Assembly: GCA_014804495.1 (NCBI GenBank)
Contig: JAAUZS010000069.1
Location: 8,120 to 20,581, forward strand
Direction of reading: 5' to 3'
Length of the DNA: 12,462 nucleotides
From: Lachnospiraceae bacterium
GTDB lineage: Bacteria; Bacillota; Clostridia; Lachnospirales; Lachnospiraceae
Positions 2,128 through 7,000 of this stretch are shown here, piece by piece (positions within the stretch are counted from its first letter, which is position 1; the number at the start of each line of letters is the position of its first letter). The notes under the pieces were generated by a model. The model made no database searches. It was given only the letters and a program-made list of their open reading frames with translations, and was not told where the DNA came from. A program made the translations under genes and the position numbers.

Positions 2128-3363
2128 TCATTCCATAATCCGTCTAATCTCTAAAATATCATCAAAATCAACTTCAGAAATACAGATTCCAATTTCAGGC
2201 ATTGCATGAACAATCATTCCATCTCCAATATAGATTGCCACATGAGGAGGCGTCTCATAAAAGATTAAATCTCCGGGTTTGGCGTTTTCTATAGCTTCTA
2301 TTTTTGTCCCCAGCGCACGTTGTCCGCCCGAATTGTGTGGAAGGCTAATTTCAAAATGCTCATATACACTCATTGTAAAACCGGAGCTGTCTGTACCTTC
2401 CGTCAGACTGTCAGCACCCCATACATATGGATTTCCAACAAACTGCAAAGCATACTCTGCAACTTCTGCCCCCTTTTTATTATCTTCTGTAATCTCTACT
2501 TCAAAAGCTCCCTCCAATTCTACATTCAGTTTTTCTACTAAAATATCAGGCTCCACCCCCAAGCTTGCAATGTATTCTGCGGCCTTTTCAGGGTTTGCTT
2601 TTGAAATATCCACCGGCAGGTCAAATAAAGCATTCAACCCTTCATATTCCTCATTTCTGCTGATTTTTCCTGTCAGTTTATCGTAGCAATAAGCTTCTGT
2701 ATTATAGAACATTCCTTCTGAAACGCAAAGATACAAGTCATGGTCTGCAAATATCTCTACATTATCACATTCCAGTAGTCTATACAAAATTCCATCTTGA
2801 ACCATGTCTGTATAATTGCCGGACATGCTGGCTATATTATAAAAAGCCGGATTATATCCACCAATTAGTGGCGAAGCAAAAAATTCCAATTTTCCATAGT
2901 CATCTTCTGAAGTATCCGGTATTGACACACCATTTGTATTTTCAATGGCAACAACCGCATATGTTCTGTCTTCAACTATAGATTCATTTTTATAACGCGG
3001 ATATTCTGACAACATCTCTCCGGAAACAATACTCAACAATGTGACGCTATAATCTCCATAGCTCTGAGTTTCATTAATGGTTAATGCCTGTTCACTTAAG
3101 AAAACCTCTGACAATTTAATATCCTGTATATTCTCAGCTACATCAGAAGATGACAAATGCTTCCACGCTGCATATACTGTCGCAGAACTCATGCATAACA
3201 ATAATGCAGTAATAATTATTGCTACTGATACTCTTCTTTTCTCTCTTTCCACCATCACGCTTTTCTCTCCTACCCTATTTAATATTTTCTGATTCAGGCA
3301 ATATTCCGCTTCATCACTCGGAGCAAGGGCATGTCTTAATGCATCATCAAACTTTTTATCCAT
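2128..3363 (-). CDS. Membrane anti-sigma-like protein fused to an NlpC/P60 domain lacking the catalytic cysteine
   Basis: A 411-residue protein. Residues 1-44 are cytosolic and charged, as in anti-sigma domains, followed by one membrane segment at about 45-66. Residues 67-295 are an extracytoplasmic region I do not recognise. Residues 298-400 are an NlpC/P60 fold (AEYALQFVGNPYVWG, then PGDLIFY, HVAIYIG and IVHA), a family that normally cuts peptidoglycan stem peptides. The family's DCSGF motif reads D325-S326-S327-G-F, so the catalytic cysteine is serine (codon AGC, bases 2386-2388). H374 and H386 remain with the usual 12-residue spacing. The gene overlaps the ECF sigma gene by 8 bp, which supports an anti-sigma role. 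My inference is a wall-sensing pseudoenzyme that releases the sigma factor; a weak serine hydrolase is not excluded. Confidence 0.75.
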   Translation of the reverse strand: MDKKFDDALRHALAPSDEAEYCLNQKILNRVGEKSVMVEREKRRVSVAIIITALLLCMSSATVYAAWKHLSSSDVAENIQDIKLSEVFLSEQALTINETQSYGDYSVTLLSIVSGEMLSEYPRYKNESIVEDRTYAVVAIENTNGVSIPDTSEDDYGKLEFFASPLIGGYNPAFYNIASMSGNYTDMVQDGILYRLLECDNVEIFADHDLYLCVSEGMFYNTEAYCYDKLTGKISRNEEYEGLNALFDLPVDISKANPEKAAEYIASLGVEPDILVEKLNVELEGAFEVEITEDNKKGAEVAEYALQFVGNPYVWGADSLTEGTDSSGFTMSVYEHFEISLPHNSGGQRALGTKIEAIENAKPGDLIFYETPPHVAIYIGDGMIVHAMPEIGICISEVDFDDILEIRRIME

Positions 3364-3883
3364 TTAAAACATCCTCCAATTCCTTTTTTAAAATTTTTCG
3401 AGCTCGATGTAATCTGCTAAGTACGGTTCCTATGGGTATTTTCATCATCTCAGCAATCTGCGCTACCTGCAAGTCTTCCATATAGAAAAGAAGTACCACA
3501 ATCTTTAATTTTTCCGGCAGCCCATTTACTGCCATTCGTATAGACTCATCTTTCTCTTTATTGGTAATTCTTTCTTCCAAAGACAGTTCCGCAGATTCAC
3601 TCATATCTATATATCTCTCATCTGCCATAAACTGCGCATCTGCAATTCTTTTCCTCCATGCAAATTTTCTCTTTTTGTTCTTCCATATGCGCAGCGCAAT
3701 TGAAAGCAAATAACTTTTTGGATTATTACTATATTCTATCTTCTCTATTAATTCTACCGCTGTCAGAAAAGTGTCCTGATATAAGTCATCAGCTTCCAGC
3801 GTATTGTTTGTAAGATACTTGCAAAATGAGTAGATATCCTTACCATATTCACCTATACACGTTTCAAGCTCTTGCTTTGTCAT
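3356..3883 (-). CDS. ECF-type RNA polymerase sigma-70 family sigma factor
   Basis: A 175-residue protein of the usual ECF length. Region 2 covers about residues 10-75 (EADDLYQDTFL, then NPKSYLLSIALRIWKNKKRK, for -10 recognition and melting). Region 4 covers about 112-170 (LPEKLKIVVLLFYMEDLQVAQIA, then a helix-turn-helix with GTVLSRLHRARK, for -35 binding). It would direct RNA polymerase to a small regulon that probably includes its own operon. The ATG at 3883 has AAAGGGAGA 7 nt upstream. The stop codon overlaps the start of the anti-sigma-like gene (ATGGATAA shared), the usual arrangement for 1:1 synthesis. A C-terminal sensor domain is absent. The signal is unknown, but the partner's cell-wall-type domain suggests envelope state. 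Confidence 0.9.
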   Translation of the reverse strand: MTKQELETCIGEYGKDIYSFCKYLTNNTLEADDLYQDTFLTAVELIEKIEYSNNPKSYLLSIALRIWKNKKRKFAWRKRIADAQFMADERYIDMSESAELSLEERITNKEKDESIRMAVNGLPEKLKIVVLLFYMEDLQVAQIAEMMKIPIGTVLSRLHRARKILKKELEDVLNG

Positions 3884-3898: not shown

Positions 3899-3910
3899 TA
3901 AGACGTCTTA
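3899..3910. promoter_or_regulatory. 12-bp perfect palindrome overlapping the ribosome-site edge of the sigma factor gene
   Basis: TAAGACGTCTTA is perfectly symmetrical. It lies in the 5' leader of the sigma gene and touches its Shine-Dalgarno sequence (3891-3899 on the complement). It could be an operator or only a chance palindrome. Confidence 0.25.
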
Positions 3911-3989
3911 TCAAGATGGCAGCTATTTTGCCCTTCACTTATATATTGTAATAACTATCAAGTTTATTCAAATCTAATTAGATTTTCAC

Positions 3990-4041
3990 AAAAAATAGGG
4001 ACGCAAATCTTGATACTCATTGTATCAAAATCTCCGTCCCT
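3990..4041 (-). terminator. Intrinsic terminator of the tRNA-Leu transcription unit
   Basis: On the minus strand a two-part stem is formed by AGGGACG (4041-4035 with 4003-3997) and TTGATAC (4028-4022 with 4016-4010), separated by an internal loop. It is followed on the minus strand by TATTTTTTG. It lies downstream of both trailer repeats, so a transcript from the tRNA-Leu promoter should contain tRNA, repeat, repeat, terminator. Confidence 0.75.
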
Positions 4042-4047
4042 GAGTGC

Positions 4048-4171
4048 TGCGGATAACAGGACGTTGCACAAGGTTCAAGTCCTGTCTTCCACTCTTTTCA
4101 ATTTTCTAATGCGGATAACAGGACATTGCACAAGGTTCAAGTCCTGTCCTCTACGCTTTTCAATATTCTAC
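4048..4171 (-). repeat. Two tandem 62-bp tRNA-Leu trailer repeats (tRNA 3' end + linker + inverted T-arm)
   Basis: Units are 4048-4109 and 4110-4171 and differ at about six positions. Each begins, on the plus strand, with TGCGGATAACAGGAC, identical to the last 15 nt of the adjacent tRNA-Leu (4172-4186) up to the discriminator base. Each then carries GGTTCAAGTCCTGT in the opposite orientation, the reverse complement of that tRNA's T-arm, and a 24-nt T-rich linker. A hairpin ACAGGAC/GTCCTGT plus TTG/CAA can form in each (4056-4085 and 4118-4147). Both units lie between the tRNA and its terminator, so they should be transcribed in the pre-tRNA trailer. Confidence 0.9.
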
Positions 4172-4252
4172 TGCGGATAACAGGACTTGAACCTGCACGT
4201 CATGGACACCAGAACCTAAATCTGGCGCGTCTGCCAATTCCGCCATATCCGC
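4172..4252 (-). tRNA. tRNA-Leu (anticodon TAG)
   Basis: This 81-nt class II tRNA has acceptor GCGGATA pairing with TATCCGC, discriminator A, and a long variable arm. The anticodon loop TTTAGGT gives TAG, which reads CUN leucine codons. CCA is not encoded. It has its own promoter at 4314-4342 and is followed by two trailer repeats built from its own 3' end. Confidence 0.97.
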
Positions 4253-4313
4253 TTATTTTACGGACTTTGTCTTCTTTTTTATCATCATGAACTAAAGAGC
4301 AAGCCCGCTATGT

Positions 4314-4342
4314 ATCATATCACTAAGAACTTTTTATGTCAA
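4314..4342 (-). promoter_or_regulatory. tRNA-Leu promoter, -35 box inside the last codons of the MATE gene
   Basis: On the minus strand TTGACA (4342-4337) and TATGAT (4319-4314) are 17 bp apart. The -35 hexamer is the last two sense codons (Leu-Thr) of the MATE gene and the spacer begins with its stop codon. The transcript would start near 4307, about 55 nt before the tRNA. Confidence 0.75.
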
Positions 4343-5695
4343 TCCAATACGACTGATGATTTTCCGGTTCACTATGAACAGGAAAACTATCGTCACACAA
4401 AGCGACATCAGTTCCGCTATCGGGAAAGCCCACCATACATAATTCAGATTTCCTGTTAAGGACAACAGATAAGCCGCCGGCAACAGCACTACCAACTGTC
4501 TTGCTATCGATACAATCATACTGTATATTGCGCAGCCCAATGCCTGAAATACCGTACCGCAAATAATACAGAAGCCTGCAAGCAAATAACTGACGCTTAT
4601 GATTCGAAGCGCCGGAACGCCGATTTCTATCATTGTTTCAGAAGCTTCAAACAACTCAAGCAACGTAGCGGGAATCAGCTGGAACACCGCCAGACCAATC
4701 AGCATGGCAGCTACTGCATACATAATTCCAAGCTTCATTGCCTGCATAAAACGCTCTCTCTTACCGGCACCGTAATTATATGACAAAATCGGCACCAAGC
4801 CGTTATTCATTCCGAAAATAGGCATGAATACGAAACTCTGCAGCTTGTAATATACACCAAACACCGCCGTAGCAGTCGAGGTAAAGGATATCAGAATACG
4901 ATTCATTCCGTAAGTCATCACTGAACCGATTGCCTGCATTATCATGGAGGGGATTCCTATCATATATATCTGTTTGATAATAGCACCGTCTATTTTCATG
5001 CCGCTGCGGCTTATTTTTACCTCTTCATTTTTAGTAAAATTAAAATAGAATGCCAAGATTCCTGCTACAATCTGACCGATCACTGTTGCAACTGCCGCGC
5101 CTCTTACGCCCATCTGGGGCATGCCTGCAAGTCCGAATATAAGAACCGGGTCTAAAATGATATTGATAATAGCCCCTGCGCCCTGTGTAATCATTGTATA
5201 AAATGTCTTTCCGGTTGCCTGCAATATTTTCTCAAAAGTGAACTGCGCGAAGATTCCGAATGAACAGCAGCAGACTACCGACAGATAATCAATTCCATAC
5301 TGTACGATTTCCATGTCATCCGTCTGACTTCTGTAAAAAGGAGCTGTCGCAAAAAGACCGACTACCAAAAAAATCAAGTAACCGAAAATCATCAAAATTA
5401 TACCGTTGCAGGCGCTTTTATTTACTTTTTCATAATCCTTTTCACCAAGCGAACGCGATAGAACCGCATTAATACCAACACAGGTTCCGCCTGCTACTGC
5501 TATCATCAGCGTCTGGATTGGGAATGCCAGAGATACTGCCGTCAGTGCATTCTCATTTATTTTTGCAACAAAAATACTGTCTACAACATTGTAAAGAGCC
5601 TGTACCAGCATAGAAATCACCATAGGAAGCGACATTGTAACCAATAGCTGGTTGACCGGCATCACACCCATTTTATTTTCTTTTGTCTGTTCCAT
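4334..5695 (-). CDS. MATE-family multidrug efflux transporter
   Basis: About 453 residues, the usual MATE length, with roughly twelve hydrophobic segments in two homologous halves. Conserved stretches include MPVNQLLVTMSLP, the ALYNVVDSIFVA helix and LQATGKTFYTM in the first half, and GMNNGLVPILSYNYGAG in the second. It would sit in the cytoplasmic membrane and export drugs or cationic metabolites in exchange for Na+ or H+. I chose the ATG at 5695 (MEQTKENKMGVMPV) over the in-frame ATG at 5707. The AAAGG ribosome site is only 3 nt from 5707, and the hairpin GATAAT/ATTATC (5711-5696) hides 5707 while bringing the ribosome site close to 5695. The leader of roughly 170 nt looks like an attenuator. 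The substrate is unknown. Confidence 0.9.
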   Translation of the reverse strand: MEQTKENKMGVMPVNQLLVTMSLPMVISMLVQALYNVVDSIFVAKINENALTAVSLAFPIQTLMIAVAGGTCVGINAVLSRSLGEKDYEKVNKSACNGIILMIFGYLIFLVVGLFATAPFYRSQTDDMEIVQYGIDYLSVVCCCSFGIFAQFTFEKILQATGKTFYTMITQGAGAIINIILDPVLIFGLAGMPQMGVRGAAVATVIGQIVAGILAFYFNFTKNEEVKISRSGMKIDGAIIKQIYMIGIPSMIMQAIGSVMTYGMNRILISFTSTATAVFGVYYKLQSFVFMPIFGMNNGLVPILSYNYGAGKRERFMQAMKLGIMYAVAAMLIGLAVFQLIPATLLELFEASETMIEIGVPALRIISVSYLLAGFCIICGTVFQALGCAIYSMIVSIARQLVVLLPAAYLLSLTGNLNYVWWAFPIAELMSLCVTIVFLFIVNRKIISRIGLT

Positions 5696-5732
5696 GATAA
5701 TACCCATTATCCTTTCTCAACCTGCGAATTTG

Positions 5733-5814
5733 CATGTGTGCTTTGCACACATTTCTCAAGCACAAAATATTGCGTAACGCATGCAAACATGTGTGAAAAA
5801 TTTATTTTTCACAC
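5733..5814 (-). promoter_or_regulatory. MATE leader: mutually exclusive hairpins (attenuator candidate)
   Basis: On the minus strand four segments can pair in competing ways. R1 GTGTGAAAAA (5814-5805) pairs with R2 TTTTTCACAC (5800-5791), 10 bp with a 4-nt loop. R3 ATGTGTGC (5752-5745) pairs with R4 GCACACAT (5741-5734), 8 bp with a 3-nt loop. R2 and R4 both contain CACACATG, so R3 can pair with R2 instead of R4. A small reading frame runs through R1 and R2 and stops 3 nt before R3. This 1:2, 2:3, 3:4 logic is that of leader-peptide attenuators of the ermC type. The mechanism is inferred. Confidence 0.6.
5756..5812 (-). CDS. Putative 18-residue leader peptide upstream of the MATE gene
   Basis: A GTG at 5812 is preceded by GGAGG (5822-5818) at 5 nt, ideal spacing and better than the ribosome site of the MATE gene itself. 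It reads (M)KNKFFTHVCMRYAIFCA and stops at 5758-5756. An in-frame ATG at 5824 would add MEVS, but its ribosome site would lie inside the coding part. Codons 1-8 cover the R1:R2 hairpin, so a stalled ribosome would open it. The peptide has no recognised domain; its likely job is to sense ribosome stalling. The strength of the ribosome site and the position among the hairpins are the evidence. Confidence 0.5.
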   Translation of the reverse strand: MKNKFFTHVCMRYAIFCA

Positions 5815-5828
5815 TGACCTCCATAAGA

Positions 5829-5856
5829 CAAAAAATGTCAGGCTTACACAGCCTGA
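5829..5856 (-). terminator. Intrinsic terminator-like hairpin in the MATE leader
   Basis: On the minus strand TCAGGCT (5856-5850) and AGCCTGA (5844-5838) enclose a 5-nt loop and are followed by CATTTTTTG with six U. It lies only about 15-35 nt after the predicted transcription start and before the leader peptide, so it would stop transcription unless bypassed. Confidence 0.6.
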
Positions 5857-5876
5857 ACAAAAGTAGAGCTATAATA

Positions 5877-5905
5877 ATTCTACTATTGACCAATAATCTT
5901 GTCAA
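5877..5905 (-). promoter_or_regulatory. Sigma-A type promoter for the MATE transcript
   Basis: On the minus strand TTGACA (5905-5900) and TAGAAT (5882-5877) have a 17-bp spacer. Transcription would begin near 5870, giving a leader of about 175 nt. Confidence 0.7.
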
Positions 5906-6065
5906 TCTTATTTAGCATAAATTTCTCAGAGCAACTTTATGAGCAGCTTTGTGTACACGCTTAGACAGATAGTATTTTCTGCAATACATGTGCTTTGTTA
6001 TTGCTTACGCCTGCTATATAGTTACATCGATTTTGAGTCAACTTTTATGTATATTTTCAAAAATA
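5906..6065. other. Intergenic stretch, nothing recognised
   Basis: This AT-rich stretch separates the divergent MATE promoter (minus) and the small-gene promoter at 6066 (plus). I see no reading frame with a ribosome site, no RNA gene and no strong hairpin in it. Confidence 0.5.
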
Positions 6066-6094
6066 TTGATTTATAAGAAACCATATGCTATAGT
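6066..6094 (+). promoter_or_regulatory. Promoter for the small gene pair
   Basis: TTGATT at 6066-6071 and TATAGT at 6089-6094 are 17 bp apart. Transcription would start near 6101, about 66 nt before the first small gene. Confidence 0.5.
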
Positions 6095-6166
6095 GAATAA
6101 AATACTATGATGAATATGCAAGATTCTTTGTGTAATGGATATCAGCAGTCGTGGGGATATATATAA

Positions 6167-6313
6167 ATGAATTTCTTAAATCTTGCAATGGAACTTGTAA
6201 AACGTCTTGTTCTCGCATGGGATCCGGATTTTACCAAACTCACTTCTGATGAACGGATACGCCTTGAAACCGCAGAATGCGGAGAATACATTGACGCTGA
6301 AAAAATAAACTGA
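6167..6313 (+). CDS. Small acidic protein of unknown function (48 aa), possible antitoxin-like
   Basis: ATG at 6167, stop at 6311-6313, with GGGGAT about 10 nt upstream as a moderate ribosome site. The protein has an amphipathic N-terminal helix (MNFLNLAMELVKRLVLAW), then DPDFTKLTSDERIRLETAE and a GEYID.. ending. I recall similar WDPDFTKLTPEE segments in small clostridial proteins, some annotated near toxin-antitoxin genes, but cannot name the family. It is followed 61 nt later by a HicB-like gene on the same strand and shares its promoter. The codon pattern and conserved-looking motif argue for a real gene. A truncated C-terminal remnant of a larger protein is an alternative. Confidence 0.5.
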   Translation: MNFLNLAMELVKRLVLAWDPDFTKLTSDERIRLETAECGEYIDAEKIN

Positions 6314-6374
6314 GATAATTAAAAAAGAATTTTGTTAGTTATTCGATAATATTCATATATAGAAGGTTTGTACT

Positions 6375-6563
6375 ATGGGTTATGTTATCACTTTTACATG
6401 GGATGATGAAACTGATGTATGGATAGCCACCAGCAAAGACATTCCCGGGCTTGTTCTTGAATCCGGTTCATTTGATGTCCTGTTGGAACGGATACGATTT
6501 GCCATACCAGAATTGCTTGAATTAAATTTTTCAACAAATATCCCTGCTATAAAAAAGATATAA
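6375..6563 (+). CDS. HicB-like / DUF1902 domain protein, possibly an orphan antitoxin
   Basis: A 62-residue protein, with AGAAGG (6361-6366) 8 nt before the ATG. Residues 3-51 (VITFTWDDETDVWIATS, then DIPGLVLESGSFDVLLERI, then the AIPELLELN ending) fit the DUF1902/HicB-like partial RNase-H fold that neutralises HicA mRNA interferases. No HicA-like gene lies on either side. The C-terminal tail is only about 11 residues and there is no DNA-binding domain. The usual tail is longer, as I recall, so the gene may be trimmed. It ends before the bidirectional terminator at 6604-6640. The family call is good; the role of an antitoxin without a visible toxin is open. Confidence 0.7.
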   Translation: MGYVITFTWDDETDVWIATSKDIPGLVLESGSFDVLLERIRFAIPELLELNFSTNIPAIKKI

Positions 6564-6603
6564 TCATTTTAATGCTTTTATAAGTATTTTTAAGCAAAAA
6601 CTA

Positions 6604-6640
6604 AACCCGAAAAACCTTATAGAATAAAGCTTTTCGGGTT
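6604..6640. terminator. Bidirectional intrinsic terminator between the HicB-like gene and the tRNA operon
   Basis: AACCCGAAAA (6604-6613) and TTTTCGGGTT (6631-6640) form a 10-bp stem. The plus side is followed by ATTTTCTC and the minus side by TAGTTTTTGC. It ends the small-gene transcript and, from the other side, the Arg-His-Gln-Lys tRNA transcript after its two trailer repeats. Confidence 0.85.
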
Positions 6641-6651
6641 ATTTTCTCACA

Positions 6652-6770
6652 TGAGCCACTGGGGACTTCAACAGGGGTTCGAGTCCCCTTCCTACTTTTT
6701 CTTGATTTAATGAGCCACTGGGGACTTCAACAGGGGTTCGAGTCCCCTTCCTACTTTTTTCTTGATTTAG
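6652..6770 (-). repeat. Two tandem tRNA-Lys trailer repeats of 59 and 60 bp (tRNA 3' end + linker + inverted T-arm)
   Basis: Units are 6652-6710 and 6711-6770, identical except for one T in a T-run and the last base. Each starts on the plus strand with TGAGCCACTGGGGACT, identical to the last 16 nt of the adjacent tRNA-Lys (6771-6786). Each then has TCAACA and GGGGTTCGAGTCCCC, the T-arm sequence in the orientation opposite to the tRNA, and a 22-23 nt T-rich linker. GGGGACT/AGTCCCC can close a hairpin in each. The layout is that of the tRNA-Leu repeats although the tRNA-derived parts differ. They lie between tRNA-Lys and the terminator. Confidence 0.92.
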
Positions 6771-6843
6771 TGAGCCACTGGGGACTCGAACCCCAGACAA
6801 CTTGATTAAAAGTCAAGTGCTCTACCACCTGAGCTAGTGGCCC
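6771..6843 (-). tRNA. tRNA-Lys (anticodon TTT)
   Basis: A 73-nt tRNA with acceptor GGGCCAC pairing with GTGGCTC, discriminator A and anticodon loop CTTTTAA. CCA is not encoded. It is the last gene of the four-tRNA operon and is followed by two repeats built from its own 3' end. Confidence 0.97.
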
Positions 6844-6847
6844 TTAA

Positions 6848-6919
6848 CTGGGCTAGCTGGATTTGAACCAGCGAATGCAGGAGTCAAAGTCCTGTGCCTT
6901 ACCACTTGGCGATAGCCCA
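6848..6919 (-). tRNA. tRNA-Gln (anticodon TTG)
   Basis: A 72-nt tRNA with acceptor TGGGCTA pairing with TAGCCCA, discriminator G and anticodon loop with TTG. CCA is not encoded. It lies 4 nt upstream of tRNA-Lys in the same transcript. Confidence 0.96.
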
Positions 6920-7000
6920 TTACTCATGACAATAGAAAATCTAAAAATCATTTCTACTGTTTGGATAACACCAAGCTGTGCACCCAATACACATGTACAG

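Follow-up and report, generated by a model that had tools for sequence, protein, structure and literature searches.

Within the window, by which we mean the whole 12,462-nucleotide stretch of Lachnospiraceae DNA analyzed here, two tRNA genes are followed by short repeated units that carry the 3' end of their own tRNA together with its T-arm in antisense. This raises the question of whether such trailers represent a genuine class, and what might keep them in step with the adjoining gene. The observation is confirmed: the class is real, it tracks the tRNA, and it extends beyond two cases. The plan is not wholly new, as it is shared by the tRNA-linked repeats (TLRs) of E. coli (Rfam RtT), of which the units look like a compact form.

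Anatomy of the Lys and Leu trailers

The units are positioned behind the last tRNA of a unit, as the initial annotation had noted, and the Lys units follow the tRNA-Lys(UUU) that ends an Arg-His-Gln-Lys tRNA run. The features are as follows.

6771..6843, minus strand: tRNA-Lys(UUU), without encoded CCA (Rfam 6771-6843, ARAGORN 6770-6843)
6711..6770, minus strand: Lys unit 1, 60 bp (tandem-array detection and covariance-model match G000:C69:14830-14874)
6733..6747, minus strand: antisense T-arm (A) of Lys unit 1, GGGGACTCGAACCCC on the tRNA strand (0/15 mismatches against the T-arm reverse complement)
6726, minus strand: bulge base of Lys unit 1
6711..6725, minus strand: tRNA 3'-end copy (S) of Lys unit 1, GTCCCCAGTGGCTCA (0 mismatches over the 13 nt compared)
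6652..6710, minus strand: Lys unit 2, 59 bp (tandem-array detection and covariance-model match)
6674..6688, minus strand: antisense T-arm (A) of Lys unit 2 (0/15 mismatches)
6652..6666, minus strand: tRNA 3'-end copy (S) of Lys unit 2
6604..6640, minus strand: intrinsic terminator past the last Lys unit (17-pair stem, then a T run)
4172..4252, minus strand: tRNA-Leu(UAG) (ARAGORN and Rfam)
4110..4171, minus strand: Leu unit 1, 62 bp (tandem-array detection and covariance-model match; A at 4133-4147 with 1/15 mismatch; S exact, ending at 4110)
4048..4109, minus strand: Leu unit 2, 62 bp (tandem-array detection and covariance-model match; A at 4071-4085; S ending at 4048)
3990..4040, minus strand: terminator-like hairpin and T run past the last Leu unit (by eye; not in the terminator scan list)

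In general, a unit opens with a linker, continues with the antisense T-arm (A) and, after a short turn, ends in S, which repeats the tRNA from T-loop to 3' end. Read on the tRNA strand, each Lys unit begins with an A-rich linker of 22-23 nt, followed by GGGGACTCGAACCCC, TGTTGA-A and GTCCCCAGTGGCTCA, where A is the exact reverse complement of the T-arm and S in full is TTGA-A-GTCCCCAGTGGCTCA. The initial annotation had described units of 59 and 60 bp containing the last 16 nt of the tRNA exactly, the antisense T-arm and a linker of 22-23 nt, and this description holds when the preceding base is included in the 16 nt. The two Lys units form a tandem array with 97% matching, and their near identity is consistent with the recent duplication that had been suggested. 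Absent from that account was the 1-2 nt insertion carried by the T-loop of S. The hairpin that A forms with S has a bulge of 1-2 nt, always at the same place. The predicted energy of this hairpin is -15.6 kcal/mol for Lys and -13.1 for Leu, with z values of -1.6 and -2.5 indicating that the hairpin alone folds only moderately better than shuffled sequences; over 74 units, the mean energy is -14.2 kcal/mol and the mean z is -2.1. The Leu(UAG) trailer (4048-4171) follows the same plan in the letters of its own tRNA, in agreement with the earlier proposal that the plan is rebuilt from the local tRNA sequence, and in the window's own genome (assembly incomplete, 94%) units stand behind 2 of the 35 tRNAs identified.

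Distribution, covariation and turnover

The window's bacterial group consists of gut bacteria. A covariance model built from 14 units (R1) found matches in 44 of the 77 genomes of the window's genus, most, though not all, of which were read individually, and this is the least biased figure for prevalence. Since the other 33 genomes yielded no R1 match, the element is dispensable. All units that we read, whether from the genus or from four further genera of its family, follow one of four tRNAs (Lys-UUU, Leu-UAG, Leu-CAA or Leu-AAG), and with few exceptions their T-arm and 3'-end sequences are those of the adjoining tRNA. The supposition that the units form a class is thus borne out in many more than the two original cases and for four isoacceptors. 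Within the genus, R1 located Lys-UUU units in two different tRNA clusters and picked up Leu-CAA, with 1 to 3 units, as a third tRNA. Outside the genus, true units were found in G329 (Leu-AAG), G379 (Leu-UAG), and G592 and G644 (both Lys-UUU loci in each).

Broader searches gave a sparser picture. A search of 61 genomes with the Lys unit returned matches in 8, all of the window's genus, one of which (G021) proved to be the T-arm of a tRNA-Thr rather than a unit. An exact-pattern scan of a species-genome collection returned 11 stretches: 7 are tRNA-Lys units in 6 genomes, from records labeled Lachnospiraceae, Clostridiales or Bacillota, and the remaining 4 are chance matches without a tRNA. Scans of the order (392 genomes), family (397 genomes) and phylum (398 genomes) found, respectively, at least 6 genomes with a match (one being the window's own and three false, tRNA-His antisense matches in genus g109), at least 5 (one being the window's own) and the window's own only; these are lower bounds for the compact form, which is all that the R models used in the scans cover, as only 16 candidates per genome were scored. 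The match at G016:C44 is likewise false, a plain hairpin without a tRNA.

The tRNA specificity is equally evident from the trailers themselves. A descriptor comprising the antisense T-arm followed by the 3'-end copy was found in 59 of 283 distinct tRNA trailers, a set enriched for units because the unit searches supplied many of its loci. By isoacceptor, the counts were 45/56 for Lys-UUU, 7/37 for Leu-UAG, 6/7 for Leu-CAA, 1/2 for Leu-AAG and 0/181 for all others. In an earlier, smaller set that likewise included loci from the unit searches, requiring A alone identified 29/36 Lys and 4/30 Leu-UAG trailers. None of the tRNA leaders with at least 160 bases contained the descriptor, and trailers matched the descriptor of another isoacceptor in only 14 of 969 trials; taken together with the trailer count, these controls rule out a chance origin, while the occurrence of units in independent genomes rules out an assembly artefact.

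Units change along with their tRNAs, as the initial annotation had anticipated. The tRNA variants CCGGGG, GGGGG...GTGCTTCA, or GTGGTTCA for GTGGCTCA are mirrored in the adjoining unit. Where the tRNA-Lys of G061 (L182) has the T-loop TTCAA for TTCGA, A of its unit reads TTTGA and S reads TTCAA, and where the Leu-UAG genes of G086 and G077 have AT for GT at the T-loop end, both arms match the change. The exceptions concern Leu-CAA: the units of G098 keep ATCGCCGGCA and their tRNA has GCCGCCGGCA, both G019 units carry letters absent from their own tRNA, and of the three units in G005, two are of its own kind and one is of the other. More generally, Leu-CAA units often diverge from their tRNA at the final base of A and in the acceptor letters of S. 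The two 3'-end alleles of tRNA-Leu(CAA), ATCGCCGGCA and GCCGCCGGCA, occur mixed between tRNA and units in L167, L168 and L171, which looks like exchange between the tRNA end and the repeat copies.

In alignments of the A:S hairpin, assembled from chosen units, 89-92% of cells were paired and 26-51 cells were changed on both sides. Paired cells, both-side changes and the covariation score each exceeded 500/500 shuffles and all slides; the other two of the five covariation measures (double-changed pairs and further pair types) did not exceed shuffles, and the outermost two pairs of the hairpin are mostly unformed. As both arms derive from the tRNA, such covariation could be obtained by common copying alone.

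Of 76 distinct units parsed, 41 have an exact A and 53 an exact S over the 13 nt compared. Departures of A from the tRNA-derived expectation number, by position, 9,1,0,0,0,0,0,3,1,2,2,0,0,7,16 (n=74, omitting L037 and L188, each with 4 mismatches in A), the inner 12 positions thus departing in 0-3 units apiece; GAACC, which is largely hairpin loop, is nearly invariant (1, 2, 2, 0, 0 of 74). Mismatches in the T-loop of S (TTCRA) number 27,23,23,0,2 of 73, the first three of these bases being the hairpin partners of A. As A is near-invariant while its partner bases in S drift, A seems to be held to the tRNA and not just to S, which for its part keeps CRA, the 1-2 nt bulge, the 3' strand and the acceptor end. 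Contrasts of this kind are not probabilities, since related genomes are not independent, and the parser, which needed a recognizable A and S, favors conserved A and under-counts decayed units; at about half a mismatch per A, the mean nonetheless stays far below the parser's limit of 4. Changes in inner A (72 units with at most 2 mismatches) comprised 7 wobble-keeping transitions, 0 pair-breaking transitions and 1 transversion. This strand-asymmetry test is suggestive only. An excess of C>T is present in unpaired S as well, so mutation bias may contribute to the wobble pattern.

The position of A is similarly restricted. It begins 21-28 nt from the tRNA end in 59 of the 64 units lying within 60 nt, which, in the window's genus, leaves no room for a terminator between tRNA and A; in the other five, A lies 50-57 nt from the tRNA with a terminator-like hairpin between them. 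GTR occurs within 12 nt before the hairpin in 48 of 75 linkers, compared with a mean of 23 and a maximum of 38 among shuffles. Among units behind tRNAs for the same amino acid, linkers differ about as much as shuffled sequences do (identity 0.60 versus 0.55; 809 pairs, again from related and hence non-independent genomes), compared with an identity of 0.95 for inner A. CCCCTGTTCGACATCCCC, with its loop and bulge, recurs in three genera (L033, L034, L043; L196; L197, L199).

Copy number varies between genomes from 0 to 3, as a comparison of relatives had been expected to reveal, with 1 to 3 units at loci having any. In G021, an exact empty site joins tRNA-Lys directly to TGTGAGAAAATAAC, the sequence found past the last unit of the window, and G035 has three identical units. 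Gain and loss therefore fall exactly between the tRNA 3' end and S, as direct-repeat recombination would give. All of the units that we read are located at tRNA 3' ends and linkers differ greatly between loci, so the mobile element copying tRNA 3' ends that the initial annotation had also entertained can be set aside.

Genuine mobile DNA does occur beside some units. A collection of viral contigs gave 25 matches (1 + 24 + 0), of which 24 are tRNA genes read in the opposite orientation, including two truncated by a contig end (L125, L136). The remaining match is a prophage attR (L113:13600-13760, within a 14 kb part of an IMG/VR contig), where a prophage with tail, tape-measure-like and lysis-like genes, as read from the ORF list, ends in the T-arm of a relative's tRNA-Lys; beyond the attR come a unit and then a host gene resembling MatE by eye. 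In G023, G031 and G077, partial 3' copies of Leu-UAG that begin within the anticodon arm are found at distances of one to 22 kb from the gene itself (L203:2100-2150, L177:2160-2190, L174:1300-1750), and in G077 a unit sits after the far copy. As units follow both the L113 attR and this far copy, they belong to the host side of these sites. L203 and L177 share AACAGGTAAAAACAGGG upstream of their Leu(UAG) copies, so small elements of one family seem to use this site for integration. REP-like palindromes (GAGAATGCG.AGCATTCTC and others) also stand beside or inside Leu-UAG units, some of them decayed (L088 after 1581; L098 before 1501; L102 after 1580), and the unit of G012 (L061) has an extra inverted copy of the acceptor end, GAGGTTCAC GGTA GTGAACCTC.

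Likeness to the TLRs of E. coli

According to PMC8144298, TLRs have been in print since 1978 and are stated to be without known function, number 22 at ten K-12 loci, were once assigned a starvation role that was later withdrawn, and have a 3' end identical to that of the adjoining gene over 18-19 bp; PMC4986893 still reports a role in the stringent response, as well as RtT-like RNAs beside tRNA genes in Actinobacillus. We read the K-12 loci tyrT, lysT, lysV and argVYZQ along with seven other tRNA loci. Rfam RtT (RF00391) occurs in four places at tyrT/tyrV and six at the Lys loci. Of 28 spacers or trailers measuring 40 nt or more (one being a false tRNA call), 11 have a direct copy of the tRNA 3' end and 4, namely tyrT, tyrV, lysQ and lysV, have an antisense match, compared with 0/200 shuffles. 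The order at lysQ and lysV is tRNA-Lys, terminator, A AAGATTCGAACCTGC, GCAGGTTTGA, an RtT core of about 64 nt, ATCCTGCACGACCCACCA and a terminator; in the Tyr repeats, A has 3/15 mismatches.

Like the Lachnospiraceae units, TLR/RtT elements (rttR in tyrT; the lysT operon and lysV) occupy tRNA trailers or spacers, repeat the 3' end of the upstream tRNA, are tandem at tyrT, and are tRNA-specific (Tyr, Lys and Arg in the K-12 loci read). At tyrT, tyrV, lysQ and lysV, an antisense T-arm stands ahead of the sense copy, and lysQ/lysV share with G592 the succession of terminator, A, S and terminator. The units copy 15-16 nt of the tRNA, extending a few bases into the trailer at many loci; the copy falls short of 18-19 bp because these tRNAs lack an encoded CCA. 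Their 1 to 3 copies per locus also lie within the one to five typical of TLRs. Differences are the 64-67 nt RtT core, which in E. coli occupies the site of the units' 1-2 nt bulge, and the repeat length, the tyrT repeat measuring 178 bp compared with 59-66 bp for the units. Furthermore, the K-12 Arg spacers and the rrnB 5S-linked repeat lack a full antisense, the latter having the direct copy and no antisense, from which it follows that the antisense is not universal among TLRs.

The RF00391 model does not recognize the window, either at its gathering threshold (45 bits) or, in 3900-7000, at E values up to 5, so the units are not RtT members. The RtT stem GGGGAAGGAU/AUCCUUCCCC, which joins the antisense T-stem to the 3'-end copy, has an equivalent in stem1 of the units, written in local tRNA letters, and this correspondence is one of architecture only, not of homology. 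By plan and place the units are very probably TLR-like, although such a sequence comparison establishes neither shared nor separate ancestry. A search of titles and opening lines of abstracts returned no paper on an antisense T-arm in TLRs, a depth of search that does not establish its absence from print.

Other known systems resemble the units less closely. Partial tRNA copies at attR sites also repeat the tRNA 3' part directly, but as a single copy at the far end of a kilobase element and with no antisense, unlike the units of the window's genus, which are about 59-66 bp, tandem, and equipped with an inverted T-arm. Between successive copies there is just linker, A and turn, or additionally a terminator-like hairpin, which is not the structure of an attachment-site scar. 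REP/BIME sequences, which are dispersed outside genes and associated with Y1 transposases (RAYT genes), are similar in having a bulge in the hairpin and a short motif 5' to it, whereas the units are bound to tRNAs and tRNA-specific; no dispersed copies of the REP/BIME type were found among the R1-R3 model matches read.

A distant Firmicutes family with a stripped-down TLR form separates the parts that are kept (antisense T-arm, bulged pairing, 3'-end copy and spacing) from the RtT core, which is not. This makes an old puzzle about TLRs testable and provides 76 natural variants linked to known changes in the tRNA.

A candidate cis-acting element and its rivals

Given the observed anatomy, tRNA-specific sequence, covariation with the tRNA, narrow spacing and changing copy number, our best, albeit tentative, explanation is a compact TLR-like trailer element that follows its tRNA through repeat recombination and selection, and whose A may sequester the T-arm of the precursor. 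The regulatory trailer hairpin mentioned in the initial annotation is plausible; a function, and an action of A in cis, are inferred. The pre-tRNA would be laid out as sense, antisense and sense, comprising the tRNA's own T-arm and 3' end, then A, then S as a second T-arm 3' strand and acceptor end. Acting in cis on the RNA, A would pair with the T-arm over 15 bp and block the cloverleaf, or would pair instead with S and release the T-arm. The balance, set either by 3' processing before A emerges or by loss of S to 3' exonucleases, would determine the share of precursor becoming tRNA, while recombination between the tRNA 3' end and the S copies would add or remove units and keep them tRNA-like. 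Were this true, the precursor's own fold would control tRNA supply. The switch mechanism itself we hold to be less likely than not, and much less certain than the TLR-like nature of the element. It is doubtful, though conceivable, that the idea extends further, such that Lachnospiraceae pre-tRNAs and the longer E. coli Tyr/Lys form, each with an antisense of its own T-arm and a spare 3' end, would be bistable, self-sequestering cis switches gating maturation, which would explain TLRs.

Predicted folding of the tRNA with its first unit favors the A:T-arm state over native tRNA plus the A:S hairpin at 55 of 56 loci, with a mean advantage of -9.6 kcal/mol (range -22.4 to +1.2) in energies that ignore tertiary structure, modification and kinetics. 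Precursors of this kind would stay immature if left to equilibrium; for tRNA to form, processing must be faster than A, or A must be taken up by S. In K-12, tyrV has the same sign (-10.9), while at lysQ/lysV the native state is better (+4.6 kcal/mol). A terminator-like hairpin, judged by eye, separates tRNA and A in G379, G592 and G644 from three other genera, and likewise at lysQ/lysV, so that only read-through transcripts would carry A at these loci. A swap of the acceptor strand to S was considered as the switch and provides no evidence, because it is also predicted with A shuffled (229/280, versus 50/56 with A intact). In favor of the element we count the plan shared by tyrT, tyrV, lysQ and lysV, the empty site in G021, the conserved A with its wobble-keeping changes, the predicted A:T-arm state, the A:S pairing, the narrow offset and GTR; the intervening terminator-like hairpins, the predicted native state at lysQ/lysV, the 3 mismatches of the E. 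coli Tyr A, the 4 each of L037 and L188, the Leu-CAA exceptions and the genomes without a match weigh against it.

Some of these features could also arise without any function, if double template switching at the T-arm palindrome produced a sense-antisense-sense duplication that slippage and unequal recombination then multiplied, homogenized and deleted. Tandem near-identical units, decayed ones (L042, L046 unit 2, L061, L073, L098), the exact empty site, the 33/77 genomes without a match and the palindromic extras in G012 and G379 would all be expected of such a by-product. We nevertheless regard it as rather unlikely, as it does not account for the narrow 21-28 nt spacing, the GTR motif, the constant bulge position, the conservation of A while its partner bases in S drift, the sharing of CCCCTGTTCGACATCCCC with loop and bulge by three genera, or the same plan in E. 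coli. The association with integrated elements could alternatively mean that the units act as DNA. T-loop tyrosine integrases exchange strands in the T-loop. On this view A could be a core site, an intact T-arm in inverted orientation, and S a half site whose overlap (8-9 nt) is spoiled, both serving as decoys for these enzymes or being their scars. The insertion in S falls exactly in the T-loop, an attB position named in PMC1762012, a relative's tRNA-Lys harbors a prophage with a unit just past attR (L113), and elements occupy Leu-UAG in G077, G023 and G031. Yet in a search of 60 genomes the only lone tRNA-Lys 3' ends listed were copies truncated at the edge of a contig, even though Lys has the most units, while the Leu-UAG search listed several although units are rarer there. 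Moreover, apart from those at a host attR, none of the units read is located within an element or at its end, the Leu-UAG elements that were read have the anticodon arm in common and not the T-arm alone, and offsets spread over 8 bp show no helical phasing, making this reading unlikely.

A trans-acting small RNA, freed from the trailer by 3' processing as proposed for E. coli RrA/B/F (Hfq, CsrA) and 3'ETS-leuZ, has a precedent in E. coli, where TLR RNAs are transcribed from the rRNA operons, processed, and bound by Hfq and CsrA (PMC8144298). It is nonetheless improbable here, since it gives no reason for A and S to track the changes of the adjacent tRNA.

The remainder of the window contains a MatE family transporter gene (4334-5707; Pfam MatE) between the Leu and Lys tRNAs, and genes for a sigma-70-like factor (3356-3883) and an overlapping NlpC/P60 protein (2128-3363), which are perhaps an ECF sigma/anti-sigma-like pair.
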